Shown here: one piece after another, positions 5,875 to 51,966 of the stretch
How positions within the stretch are numbered: the first letter of the stretch is position 1
Layout of the letters: each line of letters opens with the position of its first letter
NCBI RefSeq assembly: GCF_012184425.1
Contig: NZ_VTOW01000003.1
Location: 682,001 to 746,000 of the forward strand
Source of the DNA: Candidatus Manganitrophus noduliformans
GTDB lineage: Bacteria; Nitrospirota; Nitrospiria; SBBL01; Manganitrophaceae
Direction of reading: 5' to 3'
Length of the DNA stretch: 64,000 nucleotides
Notes under the pieces: generated by a model
What the model saw: only the letters and a program-made list of their open reading frames with translations
Database searches by the model: none
What the model was told of the DNA's origin: nothing
Program-made: the position numbers and the translations under genes

Positions 5875-7190
5875 TTCTTACAAACAACCCTCAGGCGGGT
5901 GTCCCCCACTGTAATGACATCCTCTGCGGAGAGGGGTTTTCTGTCGATCTTTTGATCATTCACAAAGATGCCGTTGGTGCTCTTGAGATCGACGAGGATA
6001 AAACCCTTTTCGGACCATTCCAGATCAGCATGATGACGGGAGACTTTCGGATCGTTCACGACGACGTCGGTTTTTCCCCTGCCGATCGAAAGCAGTTTGG
6101 GAGAAAGCTCAAAGAAGCGGCCGACCTCTTTTCCGGAAATCACTTCGAGGGCCCAGGCTCCGAGATTTTCCTGCGGGGCGGACCGAATCGGCTCGGAGGT
6201 CGACGAAGCGGAGATTTCCGAATCGGTCTGTCCTTCTTTTCCGGAGAAGTGAAAGGTCGCCGATCCGATCCGGATCTCATCCTGATCCGAGAGCTTTTTC
6301 CGGAGGACCTTCTCCTTGTTTACGAAGGTCCCGTTTCGGCTCCCCCGATCCTCGATATAAAATCCGTCCTCGTCTTCTTTGATGATCGCATGCTCCCTTG
6401 AGACCATCGGGTCTTTGATCGCCCAATCGCTTCTGAGATCACGGCCCATTGTGAAAATCCCTTTATCGAGGATTTTTTCGATCGGCGCTTCCGTTTTTTC
6501 TTCTTTGAGAATCAAGCGGGGTCGTGAGGCAAGATGGCGCTCCACCCCCTCCCCTAACGCTTCGAGGGCATCATCGACATCGGCCGCCGGCGAGACGTCC
6601 AGATCGTAAAAAAGCTGGATCTCCATCGGCTCGGCGCCGTCCGACGAGTAGGTATAGATTAAAAGCTGCTCGTGAAGGCTCCCCTCTTTCGTCACTTCGC
6701 CCGCGGCCTGGAAATAGGTCTCCGAGAGTTTTCCTCCCCTGAAATAGAAGAGGTTCATCTCTTCCCCCTTCTTCAGCAGGAGAACGGCCTCCTTCTTTTT
6801 TTTCTGCACCTGATTTAAAAGCGCTTCGATATTGAGGATGTCGGTCGTCGCCACGATATTCGGTTTTTTCTGAGCCAAGACGAGAAGCGCTTTGAAAAAG
6901 ATCGGATTGGTAACGTAGAGATGGATGGCCCCTTGGGCCTGGGACATTTCGGTAAAATAATCCGTAAAGGGAAGGGGCAAGAAGGAATTCTCCTTCAGTT
7001 CGACTGCGGCGTAGAGATCATCCTGTAAAATGAAAAGCAGAAGAGAGCGGTCTTTCTCCTCCAACAATAAAACGGCGGTGACCAAATCTCCCTTCGATTT
7101 CAGATCATTGAAGATCGTTTCGATATGGCCCGCGGAGTAAAGATTCTTTGAAAACAGTACTTTCTGATTCGCAATGAGGTCTCTTAACAT
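5871..7190 (-). CDS. Protein with two FHA domains and an uncharacterised N-terminal domain
   Basis: 439 residues from the ATG at 7190 (a GTG just upstream is in frame). Residues 1-215 form a domain I do not recognise. It recalls bacterial DUF4388-like or roadblock-adjacent sensory modules. FHA domains lie at about 240-310 (MGRDLRSD, SREHA, RGSRNGTFVN) and 355-435 (IGRGKTD, VSRHHA, KSTNGIFVN), each keeping the Arg, Ser-Arg-His and Asn positions that bind phosphothreonine. Translational coupling (ATGA) to the downstream Ser/Thr kinase makes a kinase-reader pair the natural reading. A second FHA in one chain suggests bridging of two phosphorylated partners. Confidence 0.87.
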   Translation of the reverse strand: MLRDLIANQKVLFSKNLYSAGHIETIFNDLKSKGDLVTAVLLLEEKDRSLLLFILQDDLYAAVELKENSFLPLPFTDYFTEMSQAQGAIHLYVTNPIFFKALLVLAQKKPNIVATTDILNIEALLNQVQKKKKEAVLLLKKGEEMNLFYFRGGKLSETYFQAAGEVTKEGSLHEQLLIYTYSSDGAEPMEIQLFYDLDVSPAADVDDALEALGEGVERHLASRPRLILKEEKTEAPIEKILDKGIFTMGRDLRSDWAIKDPMVSREHAIIKEDEDGFYIEDRGSRNGTFVNKEKVLRKKLSDQDEIRIGSATFHFSGKEGQTDSEISASSTSEPIRSAPQENLGAWALEVISGKEVGRFFELSPKLLSIGRGKTDVVVNDPKVSRHHADLEWSEKGFILVDLKSTNGIFVNDQKIDRKPLSAEDVITVGDTRLRVVCKK

Positions 7191-45423: not shown

Positions 45424-48210
45424 ATGACGGTTTCGTACTACCCATTGCTGATCCTTCTGGGGCCGCTTACCGCGGCCGTGGCGATCGGCCTCTTCGAAAG
45501 GCAGATCGGCCGGAAGGCCTATCGGATCGGCACCGCCGCGCAGATCGCGTCGCTCGCGATCTCCCTTCTCGTCCTCTACCAGGCCGGCGCGAGCACCGAG
45601 CCAATCCATGTCCCCCTCTCCCCCGCCGAAGGGGGCCTCTTCCAATTCGGCCTCTATATCGACCGCCTCGCCGCCGTCATGATGGTGCTCGTCAGCGCCA
45701 TCGGCTTCCTGATCTTCCGCTTCGCCATCCGCTACATGGAGCAGGAGACCGGCCGCGCCCGCTTCCACGGCCTGCTCAACCTGATGACCGTGATCCTCCT
45801 CTGCATGGTTTCCAGCCGCAACCTTCTGATGCTCTTTGTCTTCTGGCAGCTCATCAGCTGGATGCTCTACCTCCTCGTCCACAACTACTCCCACCCCGCG
45901 TCGGTGCAAGCGGCCGGGAAAACCTATATCATCCTCCGGATCGGAGACGTCGCCTTTTTGGCCGGGGTCGTCCTCGCCTATCGGACCTACGGCACCCTCG
46001 AATTCCCGCAGCTCTTCATCAAAGCGGCCGAAATGCAAGAGAGCTTTTCGCTCGGCGGATTTTCAATCGGCGCGCCGACGGTCATCACCCTGCTGATCTT
46101 CATCGGCGCCATGAGCAAGTCGGTCCAGTTTCCGATGCACACCTGGCTGGCCGGAAACCTCTACGCCCCGACGCCGGTGACCGCCCTGCTGCACGCCGGG
46201 ATCATCAACGCCGGCGGCTTCCTCATGAACCGGCTCGCCCCGCTCTACGGCCTCAGCCCCGTCACGCTCCATTTCGCCCTGCTGATCGGCGCGGTGACCA
46301 CGCTCGTCGGGGCGACGATGATGCTGACGCAGAACGACATCAAAAAGACGCTGGCCCACTCCACCGTCGGGCAGATGGGCTACATGATCATGGAGTGCGG
46401 GCTGGGGGGCTTCGCCCTCGCGATCTTCCACCTCATCGCCCACGGCCTCTTCAAAGCGACCGTCTTCCTCAACAGCGGCCACATCATCCATGCGGCCCGA
46501 CACGAGCCGAGACATCCGCCGCTGCACGACAAACACGATCAGGTGGAGCTCGCCCTGGAGAAGGGGGATTTCTCCCGCCTCACCTGGGGGGCCGGATTCC
46601 TCATGACCCTCATCCTCCCGTTGATCCTCGTCCTCACGGCGCACGGCGTGCTCCAAATCCCCCTGATCGATTCGCAAGGGGTGGTGATCTTTCTCTTCTT
46701 CATCTGGGTCACCTCCTCCCAGGCGATCCTGACCCTCTACCGCTTGCAGGCGGTGTCGTCGTGGAAGGTGGCGGCGCTCATGCTCTTCACGATGCTCCTG
46801 GTGGTATTGACCTATCTCTTCGCGGCGGAGGGGCTGACCCACTTTCTCTATCCCGCGCCGGGAGAGGCGGCCGGCTATTTCCAGGCGGCCGCGTTGAACG
46901 GATGGCTCTTCGACTTTTTGATCGCGGTGACGGCGCTGCTGATCCTCTCCGGCTGGGTGGTGATCTACGCGAGGAGCCACGGCTTCGCGATCCGGATGCC
47001 GGAGCGGACCAACGCGCTGATGACCCACCTCTACGTTTTCTTCCTGAACCGGACGTATCTGGAAGCCTTCTACGCGCGGCTCGGACGAAGATGGGAGCGA
47101 TGGACCCGCCGGCTCGACCAGAGCATGCCGTTTAAAATCGCCGTCGGCCTGATCGCGTTCGGCGTCGCCCTCGAGCGGCTCCTCCCCGCCGCCGCACGGG
47201 TGAACGATCTCTCCGCCGGAAACCTCGCGATCTTCTTGGTCGCCGTCCTCTTCCTTCCCCTCTTTCCGCTGCACGGGCTCTATGTGGCGGCGCTGACCCG
47301 GCTGCCGGGGGTTTTCCCGGCGCTGCTCGCCCTGCTTCTCCCGTTGTCGGGATTCTACGCGATCGGGGGGCTGCTTCCGGAGATCCCGACGGAGATCCGC
47401 GGGGCGATCAGCCTGCTCGCCCTCTTCGGCGCGTTCTACGGAATGGTCAAGGCGATCGCCCAGTTCCGGGTGGAGCGGCTGCTCGCCTACGGCGGGGTCG
47501 CCCTCTTCTCGATTCTCTGGTGGTATCTCGCCGGCGCGGCCGGCGGCGCGCCGCGGGGGGCGCTCTACGCCGTCGCCGCGGCGCTGATCACGGGGGGGCT
47601 CCTCTTCGCCTGGCGGACGGTGCGGACGCGATACGGCGATTTGGATCTCGACCGGATCGGCGGGCTCGCGAAGCCGATGCCCCGCTTCGCCCTCTTGCTC
47701 GCCCTCCTGGTGACCGCCGCGATGGGGCTTCCGCCGTTCGGCCTCTTTTCTGGATTGATGGAAATGCTGACGAACCGGTCGCTCCCGGTGTCGTGGGATC
47801 TCGCCGTGATCGTGCTGGCCTGGCTGGGGGCGTCGTGGCTTTTCGTCAATTTGATGCGGCGCCTCCTCTTCGGCCCCCCCCGCGCCGACATCCGATACAC
47901 CGACCTGCGCGGCGGCGAAACCGCCCCCCTGGCGATCGCGCTCTTGATCCTCCTGATCATCGGCATCGCCCCAAACGCATTTTTCCAAACAGACCCGGCG
48001 ACGACGGGACTTCCTCCACCCAGCGCGCAAAGCGCGCGTGAGGGGGAGGCTCCGGCGGCTTCGCCGACGGAGGGGGCGACGCGAGCCCCTATGATGAATC
48101 CCCAGCGAGCGAAAGCGAGCGTTGAGGGGGAGGCTCATCCAGCTTGGCTGGATGAGGGGGCGACGCAAGCCCCTATAATTAGACTCCAGCGAGCCCCTAT
48201 AATAAACTAA
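45424..48210 (+). CDS. dabB: DabB-type proton-channelling subunit (NuoL family) with a palindromic-repeat tail
   Basis: 928 residues, ATG after GGAGGAAG. The family is the antiporter-like NuoL/MrpA group: many membrane segments, FWQLISWMLYLLVHNY, MSKSVQFPMHTWLAGNLYAPTPVTALLHAG and the Lys-bearing QNDIKKTLAHSTVGQMGYM. With DabA it takes up dissolved inorganic carbon using the ion gradient. It is longer than the usual 500-600 residues, with a second membrane region (about 560-860). Residues about 866-918 are encoded by a palindromic repeat that also occurs in dabA, so the native C-terminus has been extended or replaced. Confidence 0.9.
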   Translation: MTVSYYPLLILLGPLTAAVAIGLFERQIGRKAYRIGTAAQIASLAISLLVLYQAGASTEPIHVPLSPAEGGLFQFGLYIDRLAAVMMVLVSAIGFLIFRFAIRYMEQETGRARFHGLLNLMTVILLCMVSSRNLLMLFVFWQLISWMLYLLVHNYSHPASVQAAGKTYIILRIGDVAFLAGVVLAYRTYGTLEFPQLFIKAAEMQESFSLGGFSIGAPTVITLLIFIGAMSKSVQFPMHTWLAGNLYAPTPVTALLHAGIINAGGFLMNRLAPLYGLSPVTLHFALLIGAVTTLVGATMMLTQNDIKKTLAHSTVGQMGYMIMECGLGGFALAIFHLIAHGLFKATVFLNSGHIIHAARHEPRHPPLHDKHDQVELALEKGDFSRLTWGAGFLMTLILPLILVLTAHGVLQIPLIDSQGVVIFLFFIWVTSSQAILTLYRLQAVSSWKVAALMLFTMLLVVLTYLFAAEGLTHFLYPAPGEAAGYFQAAALNGWLFDFLIAVTALLILSGWVVIYARSHGFAIRMPERTNALMTHLYVFFLNRTYLEAFYARLGRRWERWTRRLDQSMPFKIAVGLIAFGVALERLLPAAARVNDLSAGNLAIFLVAVLFLPLFPLHGLYVAALTRLPGVFPALLALLLPLSGFYAIGGLLPEIPTEIRGAISLLALFGAFYGMVKAIAQFRVERLLAYGGVALFSILWWYLAGAAGGAPRGALYAVAAALITGGLLFAWRTVRTRYGDLDLDRIGGLAKPMPRFALLLALLVTAAMGLPPFGLFSGLMEMLTNRSLPVSWDLAVIVLAWLGASWLFVNLMRRLLFGPPRADIRYTDLRGGETAPLAIALLILLIIGIAPNAFFQTDPATTGLPPPSAQSAREGEAPAASPTEGATRAPMMNPQRAKASVEGEAHPAWLDEGATQAPIIRLQRAPIIN
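48022..48177 (+). repeat. In-frame palindromic coding repeat, copy 1 (3' end of dabB)
   Basis: About 156 bases: GCGCGC-AAA-GCGCGC, a CTCCGGCGG/GCCGACGGAG-type hairpin, GGGGGCGACGCGAGCCCC, then CTCATCCAGC/GCTGGATGAG around TTG, with GAGGGGGAGGCT repeated. It is read through in the dabB frame (SAQSAREGEAPAASPTEGAT and on). A partial third unit, CCAGCGAGCCCCTAT, follows at 48186. Confidence 0.85.
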
Positions 48211-48214
48211 ACTT

Positions 48215-51200
48215 ATGCAAATAACCCGAATCCCATACAGCGAAACCGAGCGGCTGCGGCTCAGAGGGGTGGTCCGGCTGGCCGGCGAGATCATCGCCAA
48301 CTACTGGCCGATGCGGAACTTTATTACCCGCAACCCGTTGCACGGCCTGGAGCATCTCCCTTTCGAGGAGGCGGTGAGGCAGGGGGAGCGGCTCCTCGGG
48401 GCGAACGGGTATCTCTCCGGCGCGATTTACCGGGAATATCTCCGCTCCGGGAGAATTCTCCCCGAACAGATCGACGCCGCCCTCCGGCCGCTGGCGTGCG
48501 ACAAGTACGTGACGGCGGGAGAAGAGCGGGTCACCCGCCTCGCCGTCCTTCGCGCCTGCATGCTGGCGGGGCTCGGCGGCCCCGTCGACCCGGACGAGGC
48601 GGTCATCCAGGCCGCGCTCGACGCCGCTCCCGATCGGACCTTTCTGGAGGCGTTGGCGGGCCGCCTCGGCCCCGCGTCGAAACCGCTCGACCTTCGGAAA
48701 CAGATGCGGGCCGACGCCGAGGCGGCGCGGGGGGCGCTGGTCCGGCGGGTGACGCCGTCGGCCTGGTGCGACCAGGTCCTCGGAACCAACATCACCGAGC
48801 AGGTCAACGGGGAGATGATCAAATGGTGCGGCGCCTTTTTGGACGAGGGGCAGGCCCCCTGGCCGATGCCGGAACGGGAAAAAGGATTTTATCTCGCCTG
48901 GAAATCGCTCGCCGCGCTCGAATGGTCCCCCTGCGGCATCCCCCTGAGCCGCCGGAAGATCGCCGCCCTTCCGGAGGAGCCGGAAGCGGCGCTCTTCGAA
49001 AGCCTCACCGCCCTCGATATTCCCCACGATACGTGGCAGGAATATCTCTCCCTCCACCTGGCGGCCCTCCCCGGCTGGACCGGCTTCATCAAATGGCGCT
49101 CCGATCAGAGCGAATATGAATGGCAGCAGGCGTACCCCGCCGATCTGATCCAGTACCTCGCCGTCCGGATCTGGTATGTGCGGGAGCTGGTCGAGAAAGC
49201 GTGCCAGGAACATCTTGGAATCGCCGGAAGCGTCGACGCCATCTCGGCCTACCTGCAACGCCACCCGCTGGAATATTATCTGCGGCGCGCCCGGCTCGCC
49301 GGGCGGCTGCCGGCCGATTACGCCGCGCAGGTCGATCGGCTCCGCGAGCGAAGCGCCTCCTCGGTCGGACAAAAAGACGCCTGGGAGAAACTCGCCGAGC
49401 GTTATGCGGCGCAGATCGGGCCGCGGCGGGAGGAGGCGGTCCGGCGCGCCGCCGCCTTGCGGCTGCGCGCCCTCGCCGAAGCGCTCGCGATCGATCCGGC
49501 CCTTTTCCTGGAAACCCCGCCGGAGGATCTGAAGACCCTCCTCGACTGGGTCGATGCCTTTCCGGAATCGGAGCAAGGTCCGATCTGGCTAAAGGCGCTC
49601 GAAACGGGCTACCAGGGACAGCTGATCGAAAAACTGAAGTCCAATCTCAGCGCGCAAAGCGCGCATGAGGGGGAGGCTCCAGCAGCTTCATTGCTGGAGG
49701 GGGCGACGCGAGCCCCTATGATGAATCCCCAGCGAGCAAACGCGAGCGTTGAGGGGGAGGCTCATGCAGCGAAGCTGCATGAGGGGGTGACGCAAACCCC
49801 TCTATTAATCCGCCCGCAGGCGCAAGCGGTTTTTTGCATCGACGTTCGCTCCGAGCCGTTCCGGCGGCATCTGGAGGCGGTCGGCGATTACGAGACGTTC
49901 GGCTTCGCCGGCTTCTTCACCGTCTTCATCCGCTATCAAGGGCTCGGCGATCATCACGAGACCGATCAGTATCCGGTGATCATGAAGGCGAAGAACCTGG
50001 TGCGGGAGCTCCCCCGCCCCTATCAGGGCCGGCTCCTCTCCCGGCATCTCTCTGGGACGCAGCTGCTGCACATGGGGCATGAGCTGTTGTATTCCCTGAA
50101 GGAGAATGTGATCACCCCGTATGTGATGGTCGAGTCGGTCGGCTGGTTCTACGCGCTTCCGCTGATCGGCAAGACGGTTTTCACCAACGGGTATCGGAAT
50201 CTGACCGCCTGGTTCCGCCGGCTCTTCGCCCCCCCGGTCTCCACCTCGCTCACGATCGACAAGCTCTCCCGGAAAGAGGTCGAGGAGATGCTCGCCTCCG
50301 AGCAGCGGGCGGTCATCCGGCGGGCGCTGCAGCAGGAGTTCGGCGACCGGAACCTGAACCTCTCTCTGGAGCGGCTGGAGTTCTTTCGCCGGCGGGCGAT
50401 GGACGACATCGATCCGGCGCCGTTGGTCAAGGGTTCGACCCGTCCCAATGCCCTCTCCGCGGAGGAGGAGGCCGCCTTTATCGAAGATCTCCGCGCACGC
50501 TACCAGATCAACCGTCGCTGGTCGTTCGCCCGGATGGAGAAGATCACCCGGACCGGCTTCACCCTTCAGGAGCAGCTCTTCACCGTGGAGACGGCGCTCC
50601 GGATGATGGGGCTGACCAAAAACTTCGCCCGGTTGGTCCTCTTCTGCGGGCACGGCAGCGCTTCGGAGAACAACCCGTACGAGGCGGCGCTCGACTGCGG
50701 CGCCTGCGGCGGAAACTCCGGCAAGCCGAACGCGCGGGTGCTGGCGGCGATGGCGAACAAGCCGCTCGTCCGGGAGGGGCTGGCGAAGAACGGCATCGTG
50801 GTTCCCGCCGACACCTATTTCATCGCCGGCGAGCACAACACCACCACCGACGCGGTGGCCTTCTTCGATCTGGAGGAGCTTCCCCAGACCCACCGGATGG
50901 ATCTGCACCGGCTGATGGACGATCTGGAGGAGGCCGGCCTTCAGACCAGCCGGGAGCGCTGCGCGCGGTTCCCGGAGATCGAATCGGCCCCGACCCCCGC
51001 TCAGGCGGCGCAGGAGGTGCGGCGGCGCAGCGGCGACTGGAGCCAGGTCCGGCCGGAGTGGGGGCTGTCGGGGAACGCGGCCTTCGTCATCGGCGGCCGG
51101 CGGATGACCCGGCGGGTTGATTTGGAAGGGAGGGTTTTCTTACAATCGTATGATCCTCAGGAAGATCCGACCGGCCGGCTGCTGGAGATTCTGATGACCG

Positions 51201-51628
51201 GCCCCCAGGTGGTCGGCCAGTGGATCAACATGGAGTACTATTTTTCGACGGTCGACAACGGGGTCTACGGGAGCGGGAGCAAGATTTACCACAACGTCGT
51301 CGGCCGGTTCGGGGTCATGTCGGGGCCGCAGAGCGATTTGCGCGTGGGGCTCCCCGCGCAGACGGTGATGAAGGGGGAGCGGCCGTATCATGAGCCGATG
51401 CGGCTGCTGAGCGTGATCGAAGCGCCGCGGGAGCGGATCGGAGCGATCATCCGCCGTCATAAAGTGCTTCAGGAATATTACCACAACGAATGGGTCCACT
51501 TGATCGCGCTCGACCCGGGGGATAAAATCTTCTATCGCTATCTTCCAAGCCGGGAGTGGGTTCCCTTGAGGGAGGCGCGGGCGATTCCGCAGGACGAAAT
51601 GTTTTTAGAGAAGGAGCAGAACGTATGA
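48215..51628 (+). CDS. dabA: DabA (DUF2309) inorganic-carbon transporter subunit with an in-frame repeat insertion
   Basis: 1137 residues. Beta-carbonic-anhydrase-like zinc ligands can be placed: C541 and D543 in VFCIDVRSEPFRRHLE, H813 in CGHGS and C828 in CGACGGNSGKPNARV. The 15-residue His-to-Cys spacing equals that of the studied Halothiobacillus DabA. DabA is thought to trap CO2 as bicarbonate on the cytoplasmic face, driven through DabB. Residues about 478-531 derive from a palindromic repeat inserted without breaking the frame, only about 10 residues before C541. It starts 4 bp after dabB ends and overlaps the PII-like gene by ATGA. Confidence 0.94.
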   Translation: MQITRIPYSETERLRLRGVVRLAGEIIANYWPMRNFITRNPLHGLEHLPFEEAVRQGERLLGANGYLSGAIYREYLRSGRILPEQIDAALRPLACDKYVTAGEERVTRLAVLRACMLAGLGGPVDPDEAVIQAALDAAPDRTFLEALAGRLGPASKPLDLRKQMRADAEAARGALVRRVTPSAWCDQVLGTNITEQVNGEMIKWCGAFLDEGQAPWPMPEREKGFYLAWKSLAALEWSPCGIPLSRRKIAALPEEPEAALFESLTALDIPHDTWQEYLSLHLAALPGWTGFIKWRSDQSEYEWQQAYPADLIQYLAVRIWYVRELVEKACQEHLGIAGSVDAISAYLQRHPLEYYLRRARLAGRLPADYAAQVDRLRERSASSVGQKDAWEKLAERYAAQIGPRREEAVRRAAALRLRALAEALAIDPALFLETPPEDLKTLLDWVDAFPESEQGPIWLKALETGYQGQLIEKLKSNLSAQSAHEGEAPAASLLEGATRAPMMNPQRANASVEGEAHAAKLHEGVTQTPLLIRPQAQAVFCIDVRSEPFRRHLEAVGDYETFGFAGFFTVFIRYQGLGDHHETDQYPVIMKAKNLVRELPRPYQGRLLSRHLSGTQLLHMGHELLYSLKENVITPYVMVESVGWFYALPLIGKTVFTNGYRNLTAWFRRLFAPPVSTSLTIDKLSRKEVEEMLASEQRAVIRRALQQEFGDRNLNLSLERLEFFRRRAMDDIDPAPLVKGSTRPNALSAEEEAAFIEDLRARYQINRRWSFARMEKITRTGFTLQEQLFTVETALRMMGLTKNFARLVLFCGHGSASENNPYEAALDCGACGGNSGKPNARVLAAMANKPLVREGLAKNGIVVPADTYFIAGEHNTTTDAVAFFDLEELPQTHRMDLHRLMDDLEEAGLQTSRERCARFPEIESAPTPAQAAQEVRRRSGDWSQVRPEWGLSGNAAFVIGGRRMTRRVDLEGRVFLQSYDPQEDPTGRLLEILMTGPQVVGQWINMEYYFSTVDNGVYGSGSKIYHNVVGRFGVMSGPQSDLRVGLPAQTVMKGERPYHEPMRLLSVIEAPRERIGAIIRRHKVLQEYYHNEWVHLIALDPGDKIFYRYLPSREWVPLREARAIPQDEMFLEKEQNV
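49648..49808 (+). repeat. In-frame palindromic coding repeat, copy 2 (inside dabA)
   Basis: Same block order as 48022-48177. The hairpin CTCCAGCAG/TGCTGGAG and the hairpin CTCATGCAGC/GCTGCATGAG differ from copy 1 at positions that change together on both arms, so stem pairing is conserved. It encodes SAQSAHEGEAPAASLLEGAT and on, about 53 residues. Confidence 0.88.
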
Positions 51629-51966
51629 ACAGCCTTACCCTTCACCCGATGAAGGAGATTCGAATCATCATTCAGGGCGAGCACGTGAAGTTCGCGACCG
51701 ATCTGCTCGACAGCGTCAAGGCGACCGGCTACACGATCATCCACAACATTTCGGGAAAAGGGACCCACGGGCTTCACTCGGCCCATCCGATGTTCAATGA
51801 GATGGACAGTCTGGTGATGTTGATGACGATCGTTCCGCCCGACAAGGTGAAGCCGATTCTCGCCGGCTTACAGCCGCTCTTCGACCGCCATACCGGGGTG
51901 ATGTTCGTCTCGGACGTCTCGGTCAGCCGCGTGGACCACTTCGCCTCCCCGTCCGGAGACCGCTGA
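51625..51966 (+). CDS. PII-like protein of the dab operon
   Basis: 113 residues; the ATG at 51625 overlaps the dabA stop (ATGA). It has a PII-like ferredoxin fold outline: MKEIRIIIQGEHVKFATDLLDSVKATGYTIIHNISGKG, a T-loop-like GTHGLHSAHPMFNEMDS and LVMLMTIVPPDKVKPILAGLQPLF, ending in TGVMFVSDVSVSRVDHF. The uridylylated Tyr of GlnB is absent. PII-like proteins accompany bicarbonate transporters (SbtB, DUF2309 clusters) and are thought to sense nucleotides and gate transport. Here regulation of DabAB is the natural inference. Confidence 0.85.
   Translation: MNSLTLHPMKEIRIIIQGEHVKFATDLLDSVKATGYTIIHNISGKGTHGLHSAHPMFNEMDSLVMLMTIVPPDKVKPILAGLQPLFDRHTGVMFVSDVSVSRVDHFASPSGDR

Follow-up and report, generated by a model that had tools for sequence, protein, structure and literature searches.

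A palindromic repeat within dabA and at the end of dabB of Candidatus Manganitrophus noduliformans as a probable member of a mobile, cross-phylum element family

Two neighbouring genes of Candidatus Manganitrophus noduliformans, dabB and dabA, encode subunits of the DAB inorganic-carbon system, and both carry copies of the same palindromic repeat within an open reading frame (ORF). The question raised by this locus is what the repeat is, and how two genes have come to accommodate it. We analysed a stretch of 64,000 nucleotides (the window; positions 682,001 to 746,000 of contig NZ_VTOW01000003.1, assembly GCF_012184425.1); the 5.17-Mb genome that carries it is referred to as G000, and other genomes of comparison as G001 to G005. 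A preliminary description had noted two copies of a repeat of about 155 bp (48022-48177 and 49648-49808), inserted in frame in both genes and likened to the Rickettsia palindromic elements (RPEs), which were reportedly described by Ogata et al. in 2000 and 2002. We conclude, with a probability of roughly 85%, that the dab repeats represent a selfish, non-autonomous, structure-constrained mobile DNA element, designated type A, which acts in the manner of an RPE but belongs to a separate family spread across phyla.

The repeat is real, and its limits can be refined to a 170-bp pair (48021-48190 and 49648-49817) with 86% identity, the top direct repeat of the window in a repeat search. Each member of the pair consists of two units of about 82 bp in tandem. 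The features of the locus are given below, with unit coordinates converted from the contig positions of hits to a covariance model, R1, for which 15 units from six species served as the basis.

45424..48210, + strand: dabB, NuoL/Mrp-like membrane subunit of the DAB inorganic-carbon system; ORF of 928 aa; Pfam PF00361/PF00662 (Proton_antipo_M).
48021..48190, + strand: element copy 1, two tandem type-A units at the 3' end of dabB; repeat search and model hits.
48020..48099, + strand: type-A unit B1, three hairpins; R1 91.4 bits (G000:C3:730020-730099); DNA fold z -2.9.
48102..48183, + strand: type-A unit B2, variable stem 48134-48143/48147-48156; R1 102.4 bits; RNA fold z -4.1.
48184..48207, + strand: third unit, truncated (CTCCAGCGAGC|CCCTATAATAAA), supplying the last dabB codons; identified in the sequence, absent from G001, G002 and G005.
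48215..51628, + strand: dabA, beta-carbonic-anhydrase-like subunit; ORF of 1137 aa including the insert; Pfam PF10070 (DabA), 903 bits; DabA2 of PDB 9rd0.
49648..49817, + strand: element copy 2, two tandem type-A units in frame within dabA (residues ~479-531); repeat search, model and alignments.
49647..49726, + strand: type-A unit A1; R1 85.9 bits.
49729..49810, + strand: type-A unit A2, variable stem 49761-49770/49774-49783; R1 99.7 bits.
49835..49837, + strand: Cys541 codon, counterpart of the DabA2 zinc ligand Cys351; alignment to 9rd0, ligand from PMC13144422.

Each unit runs from hairpin 1 through GAGGGGGAGG, hairpin 2 and hairpin 3 (GGGGCGACGCRAGCCCC) to a TATAAT-like tail. Hairpin 1 is either GCGAGC..GCGAGC with tandem G.A mismatches, because of which an automatic search for perfect stems misses it in most copies, or GCGCGC..GCGCGC, and hairpin 2 is a variable stem between CTC and GAG. 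The stems covary in two of the three hairpins, and hairpin 3 is almost invariant. Conservation extends on the right to about 8-9 nt past the last CCCC, and on the left it fades about 20-24 nt before GGGGAGG. The compensatory stem changes pointed out previously are exactly as claimed (CTCATCCAGC/GCTGGATGAG at 48134-48143/48147-48156 versus CTCATGCAGC/GCTGCATGAG at 49761-49770/49774-49783), and are backed by covariation in two alignments. Among the 15 units used for R1, eight pairs have both sides changed, with a covariation of 0.259 compared with 0.122 for shuffled alignments and at most 0.048 when the partners are slid; among 117 copies from other genomes, in an alignment fitted to the model and hence biased towards it, there are 14 such pairs (0.216 versus 0.061). 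Both scores lie above every shuffle and every slid control. Three of the four dab units beat at least 199 of 200 shuffles in folding, both as DNA and as RNA, and B1 does so as DNA but is moderate as RNA (z of -1.85), the RNA values for the dab units ranging from about -1.85 to -4.1. The fold had been attributed to selection or to the biology of the element itself. Its retention is borne out, but quasipalindrome correction during replication also yields compensatory changes in DNA hairpins, and covariation therefore shows that the fold is kept rather than why, and is not in itself proof of selection.

Further copies, for which a search of the genome and its relatives had been proposed, are dispersed in many other genomes, although in G000 type A is present only at dab, as four units. 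The congener G004 has four copies on four other contigs, apparently intergenic, and DabA was not found in this genome, which is 72% complete. The element is present in 11 of the 18 genomes of the order, and an exact-pattern scan over 84,980 species genomes recovered at least 120 stretches. The matches listed belong to Nitrospirota, to several groups that carry the name Deltaproteobacteria (Syntrophus, Syntrophorhabdales and Syntrophobacterales among them), to one Acidobacteria genome, to Bdellovibrionales and to Candidatus Peribacteria; most are in metagenome assemblies of groundwater, sediment and peat. Searches across the genome collection give 2 to at least 144 copies per genome, with at least 144 in one of 2.0 Mb and at least 116, then 73, 53, 49, 48 and 20, in others; the high counts are lower bounds because 150 candidates were scored per genome. 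High-copy carriers include the Nitrospirota genome JACRHA and the JADGQN Syntrophobacterales. The exact pattern is nonetheless patchy, occurring in 7 of 198 Nitrospirota genomes, and the best identities between phyla are 0.72-0.90 over about 80 nt, the value of 0.90 being for a Nitrospirota/'Deltaproteobacteria' pair. Together, the patchiness and the identity across phyla suggest horizontal spread.

The copies in other genomes and the covariation rule out a chance likeness of two GC-rich stretches. No match was found by exact pattern in IMG/VR, or in phage and plasmid collections, and carriage by phages, plasmids or viruses was rejected on these grounds, as was a known RNA family, since Rfam 15 returned nothing near the gathering score for the dab copies and three copy-rich loci. 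Among the candidates discarded, an Actinomycetes pattern match (L158) lacks the remainder of the unit and looks like chance, and L003 and L021 are look-alikes derived from coding sequence. In a Syntrophorhabdaceae metagenome-assembled genome (MAG), units recur in tandem about every 77 bp where a contig ends (L185; about 6181-6304, minus strand). The motif is undescribed, as DNA or as peptide, in the searchable literature, a search outside which subscription papers and preprints fall, and we provisionally regard type A as a previously unrecorded repeat family.

Are the dab genes exceptional in carrying the element in frame? Across the carriers, in-frame copies on the same strand lie inside about 15 unrelated conserved genes, as judged by Pfam matches flanking the insert on both sides or by a single domain spanning it. 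The hosts are QueA, LeuRS, MetRS, a zinc alcohol dehydrogenase, a LigT-type phosphoesterase, a molybdopterin oxidoreductase, a GlpC-like Fe-S protein, a UvrD-type helicase, an Fe-S/NAD-binding oxidoreductase, NrdJ, RlmN, a YegS-like kinase, CinA, PBP1A and RimP, and copies are situated close to the gene end in IF-2, MoaA, an ammonium transporter and others. The peptide added is usually xSEQxEREGEAPxALPxEGATRAPxIx, in the same frame as EGEAP...EGATRAP of DabA and DabB, and a second phase, SERGRLHPA.PVEGATRAP, is used in copies with a different hairpin 2 length; a 26-residue consensus peptide has matches in 14 of the 15 carriers tested. Of the copies that are distinct and have sufficient flanking sequence, 18 lie in a frame that extends at least 100 codons to each side; a further 14 have long frames on both sides, and their flanks read as apparent boundaries between different genes. 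No conserved gene was seen to be split by a copy out of frame, so that neither translational bypass nor splicing of such copies need be assumed, and both were dropped as uncalled for. In-frame copies appear to be the only ones that genes tolerate. In the ribonucleotide reductase of one Deltaproteobacteria MAG (L150:1567-6624), a single open frame holds a type-A element as well as an intein-like LAGLIDADG region.

Invariant motifs, covarying stems, a stable fold and numerous intergenic copies are also what might be expected of a functional nucleic acid, an RNA or single-stranded DNA structure with a role in mRNA stability, translation or chromosome structure, which would not be selfish and whose in-gene copies would be tolerated by-products. 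We consider this unlikely, given the patchy distribution and the wide range of copy numbers, the lack of any fixed class of neighbouring gene, the presence of copies in unrelated genes and the lack of an Rfam match.

We then consider what the copies do to their hosts at dab. In DabA, residues ~479-531 are derived from the element, including the stretch around EGEAPAASLLEGATR. Alignment to DabA2 (PDB 9rd0) resumes at I532, equivalent to E342, and Cys541 therefore corresponds to Cys351, which together with His524 and Cys539 is among the zinc ligands of DabA2 (PMC13144422); the placement of the insert 10 residues before a zinc ligand is thus confirmed. In DabA2, residues 281-336 are the first part of beta-carbonic-anhydrase-like domain II and 341-655 are domain I (PMC13144422), so that the insert lies at the domain II/domain I junction. 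The solved DabA2 lacks it, as do the DabA proteins of G005 and of seven genomes that belong to the order but not to the genus; in G005 and these seven genomes the site is taken up by no more than a variable linker, some 10-25 residues long. The empty sites that had been anticipated in relatives therefore exist, and the description as an internal in-frame insertion holds for dabA. None of the outcomes put forward as refuting the preliminary reading was observed. It does not hold for dabB: the element occupies residues ~866-922 of 928, and because DabB homologues of the order align only up to ~855, this copy is a C-terminal extension.

Both dab sites are occupied in G000, G001, G002 and G003, and only that in dabB in G005. 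By DabA identity G005 is nearer to G000 than G002 and G003 are, so that loss or replacement is the best reading of its empty dabA site. The frame of the dabA insert is open throughout G000-G003. The ratio of nonsynonymous to synonymous differences (pN/pS) in the inserts is 1.08 for dabA between G000 and G002, and 0.85 for dabB against both G001 and G002, compared with 0.26-0.29 outside the inserts in the same genes; in three of four comparisons the insert is thus close to neutral at the amino-acid level. The order of units differs between species, the stem types of G000 dabB sitting at other positions in G002, and the truncated third unit, probably a deletion remnant, is present in G000 only. 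Both observations would fit units having been lost and gained as the repeats recombined with one another.

A role for the insert in the DAB complex, in regulation for example or in contact between DabA and DabB, would account for type A being present only in dabA and dabB of the genus. It draws some strength from the two carriers being subunits of one complex, from the maintenance of the frame at both sites in G000-G003, and from the restriction of type A to dab within the genus, except for G004 with its copies on other contigs. Such recruitment is nevertheless distinctly unlikely in view of the pN/pS values of about 0.85-1.08 in three of the four comparisons, the absence of the insert from G005 dabA, and its variability in sequence and length, which includes disruption by a nested element of a second kind (type B, below) in G003. 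A near-identical peptide is moreover present in unrelated enzymes elsewhere.

The flanks of type A bear on how it might move. Strong direct repeats of the flanking sequence, about 17-97 bp long, are present at 14 of 121 copies versus 0.3 expected, and most begin 7-13 nt past the CCCC of the last hairpin and have a variable upstream end. They are often located at the 3' ends of tRNA genes (L054, L059, L097, L107 and L155) or of protein genes (L086, L118, L146, L172 and L181). In several of the protein-gene cases the duplicated ends differ almost only synonymously outside an identical core, which a simple target duplication does not explain. The duplicated protein gene ends resemble the recoded ends left behind by integrative elements.

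One source of movement would be a transposase of the Y1 class, with type A as a repetitive extragenic palindromic (REP) or REPIN-type repeat moved by a REP-associated tyrosine transposase (RAYT). Type A is indeed a high-copy hairpin repeat, and most carrier genomes have Y1_Tnp genes. We find this very unlikely, however, since in the sequence stretches around 20 Y1_Tnp loci an element is near only one, about 1 kb distant and in an element-dense genome, and since G041, G050 and G059, which lack the exact pattern, have Y1_Tnp genes too and the carrier G001 has none. The unit, at about 80 bp with three hairpins, also argues against it, and with no Y1 genes flanked by the element a RAYT-driven REP was rejected as unsupported. 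Finally, we found nothing in favour of the segments being a normal conserved part of DabA and DabB, which the empty sites in relatives of both proteins refute, or an assembly artefact, given that the repeats recur in independent assemblies including the single-contig G001, and we dismiss both.

We therefore return to a mobile, selfish type A. The account that we favour is that an enzyme acting in trans would recognise the fold and the invariant motifs and mobilise the element of about 80 bp, whose three-hairpin fold is retained while two stems vary. With few stop codons in most element frames, insertions in linkers or loops that are in the right phase would be translated as harmless filler of about 27 residues per unit and would not be selected against; the other copies lie between genes. 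At dab, the element probably inserted in the ancestor of the genus, once where a linker joins the two carbonic-anhydrase-like domains of DabA and once at the 3' end of dabB, followed by inheritance, partial homogenisation between dabA and dabB, shortening and lengthening unit by unit, and loss from dabA in one species.

Several points weigh against this account. Type A is confined to dab in G000, and recent movement there is accordingly not demonstrated. The pN/pS of the dabA insert against G001 is 0.17, albeit from three changes. No fixed short target duplication was detected when 4-8 nt k-mers at any consistent pair of edge offsets were compared with expectation, and no transposase is linked to the element, which flanks no RAYT-type genes. 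The majority of the genomes are metagenome assemblies.

More speculatively, and against somewhat unfavourable odds, type A could be a horizontally spreading, coding-compatible nucleic-acid parasite of several phyla that moves by way of its conserved unpaired motifs and a folded single strand, either single-stranded DNA or RNA. Its mechanism would then be unlike that of known bacterial transposons, with a defined 3' end and a variable 5' side, long and variable duplications of flanking gene ends, and no partner gene of a known kind.

Type A has a sister element, type B, with the layout AAGCGAG-hairpin-CAAGCGCGGGGTGTGGGGGCATCGGAGGA...CCGCACGGGCCCCCACA. It is dispersed in Nitrospirota carriers, with 11 matches in G000, 28 in G018 and 42 in G163, and has no matches in the three 'Deltaproteobacteria' searched. 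In G000 it is in frame close to the C-terminus of TrmFO.

L344 (G000:C1:1374432-1374511), L345-L347 and L349: type B loci in G000.
L109:7118, L124:2589 and L098:614: type B loci elsewhere.

Type B also lies inside type A, nested in hairpin 2, at both dab genes of G003 (L027), in dabB of G005 (L026), and at L077, L092, L125, L138 and L168; in G003 DabA the nested pair is in frame (GARGVGASEDSPKANRAGHPIESPATQAP). Nesting of palindromic elements would be a further parallel to RPE-like elements. Directly after dabA, at 51556-51966 of the window, is a P-II-family regulator (Pfam P-II).

Rickettsia and Wolbachia are the best-known hosts of protein-coding palindromic repeats, and few other microbes have been reported to have them; here, one exact pattern finds a family in frame in conserved enzymes across several phyla. 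The many natural insertions in well-studied proteins make movement, tolerance of a 27-residue insert and recruitment of filler testable. The family would also account for odd insertions in annotated proteins, for which an Rfam- or Pfam-style mask would be useful.

How does type A compare with known systems? Like RPEs and the Wolbachia elements (reviewed in PMC10969869 and PMC2229807), it is a short palindromic repeat located between and inside genes with its fold kept, in frame in unrelated conserved genes and with empty sites in relatives or families. Within a single genome, copies both in genes and between them are seen in other carriers and, for type B, in G000 itself. In the gmk case that was tested an RPE insert was close to neutral for function (PMC2229807). 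The RPE hallmark, however, is a single long stem-loop, 105-146 bp in length and with terminal inverted repeats (PMC2229807), whereas type A is about 80 bp with three consecutive hairpins and has unit ends that do not pair with each other in the predicted folds, and for this reason we do not file it as an RPE. It also differs in being present in several free-living phyla rather than in intracellular alphaproteobacteria, and in having highly conserved unpaired motifs and, at some sites, long flanking duplications.

Miniature inverted-repeat transposable elements (MITEs) with coding potential, such as ERIC, the 107-bp form of Correia and QMITE1 of C. burnetii (PMC10969869, PMC2229807), are similarly small, non-autonomous and structured, and sometimes form in-frame fusions. 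Type A differs in having neither terminal inverted repeats that join its ends nor a fixed short target duplication, and no parent insertion sequence was found; its duplications are exclusively long, variable in length and at about 10% of copies, unlike those of a MITE of a DDE transposon. REPs and REPINs with their RAYTs (GTAG/CGTC families, PMC3733652) are likewise high-copy hairpin repeats of several phyla, some of them inside genes, but type A is larger, has three hairpins and is unassociated with Y1_Tnp genes. Palindromic DNA with coding potential is also found in palindromic amphipathic repeat coding elements (PARCELs), which spread horizontally (PMC2996958), and in the coding palindromes of M. 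jannaschii (Suyama et al. 2005, as cited in PMC2996958); PARCELs are tandem 75-nt repeats that encode amphipathic domains in dedicated proteins, whereas type A provides single filler inserts in housekeeping enzymes. The resemblance to RPEs noted in the preliminary description therefore stands as one of behaviour, namely in-frame residence in unrelated conserved genes, and among known systems type A comes closest to the protein-coding palindromic repeats.

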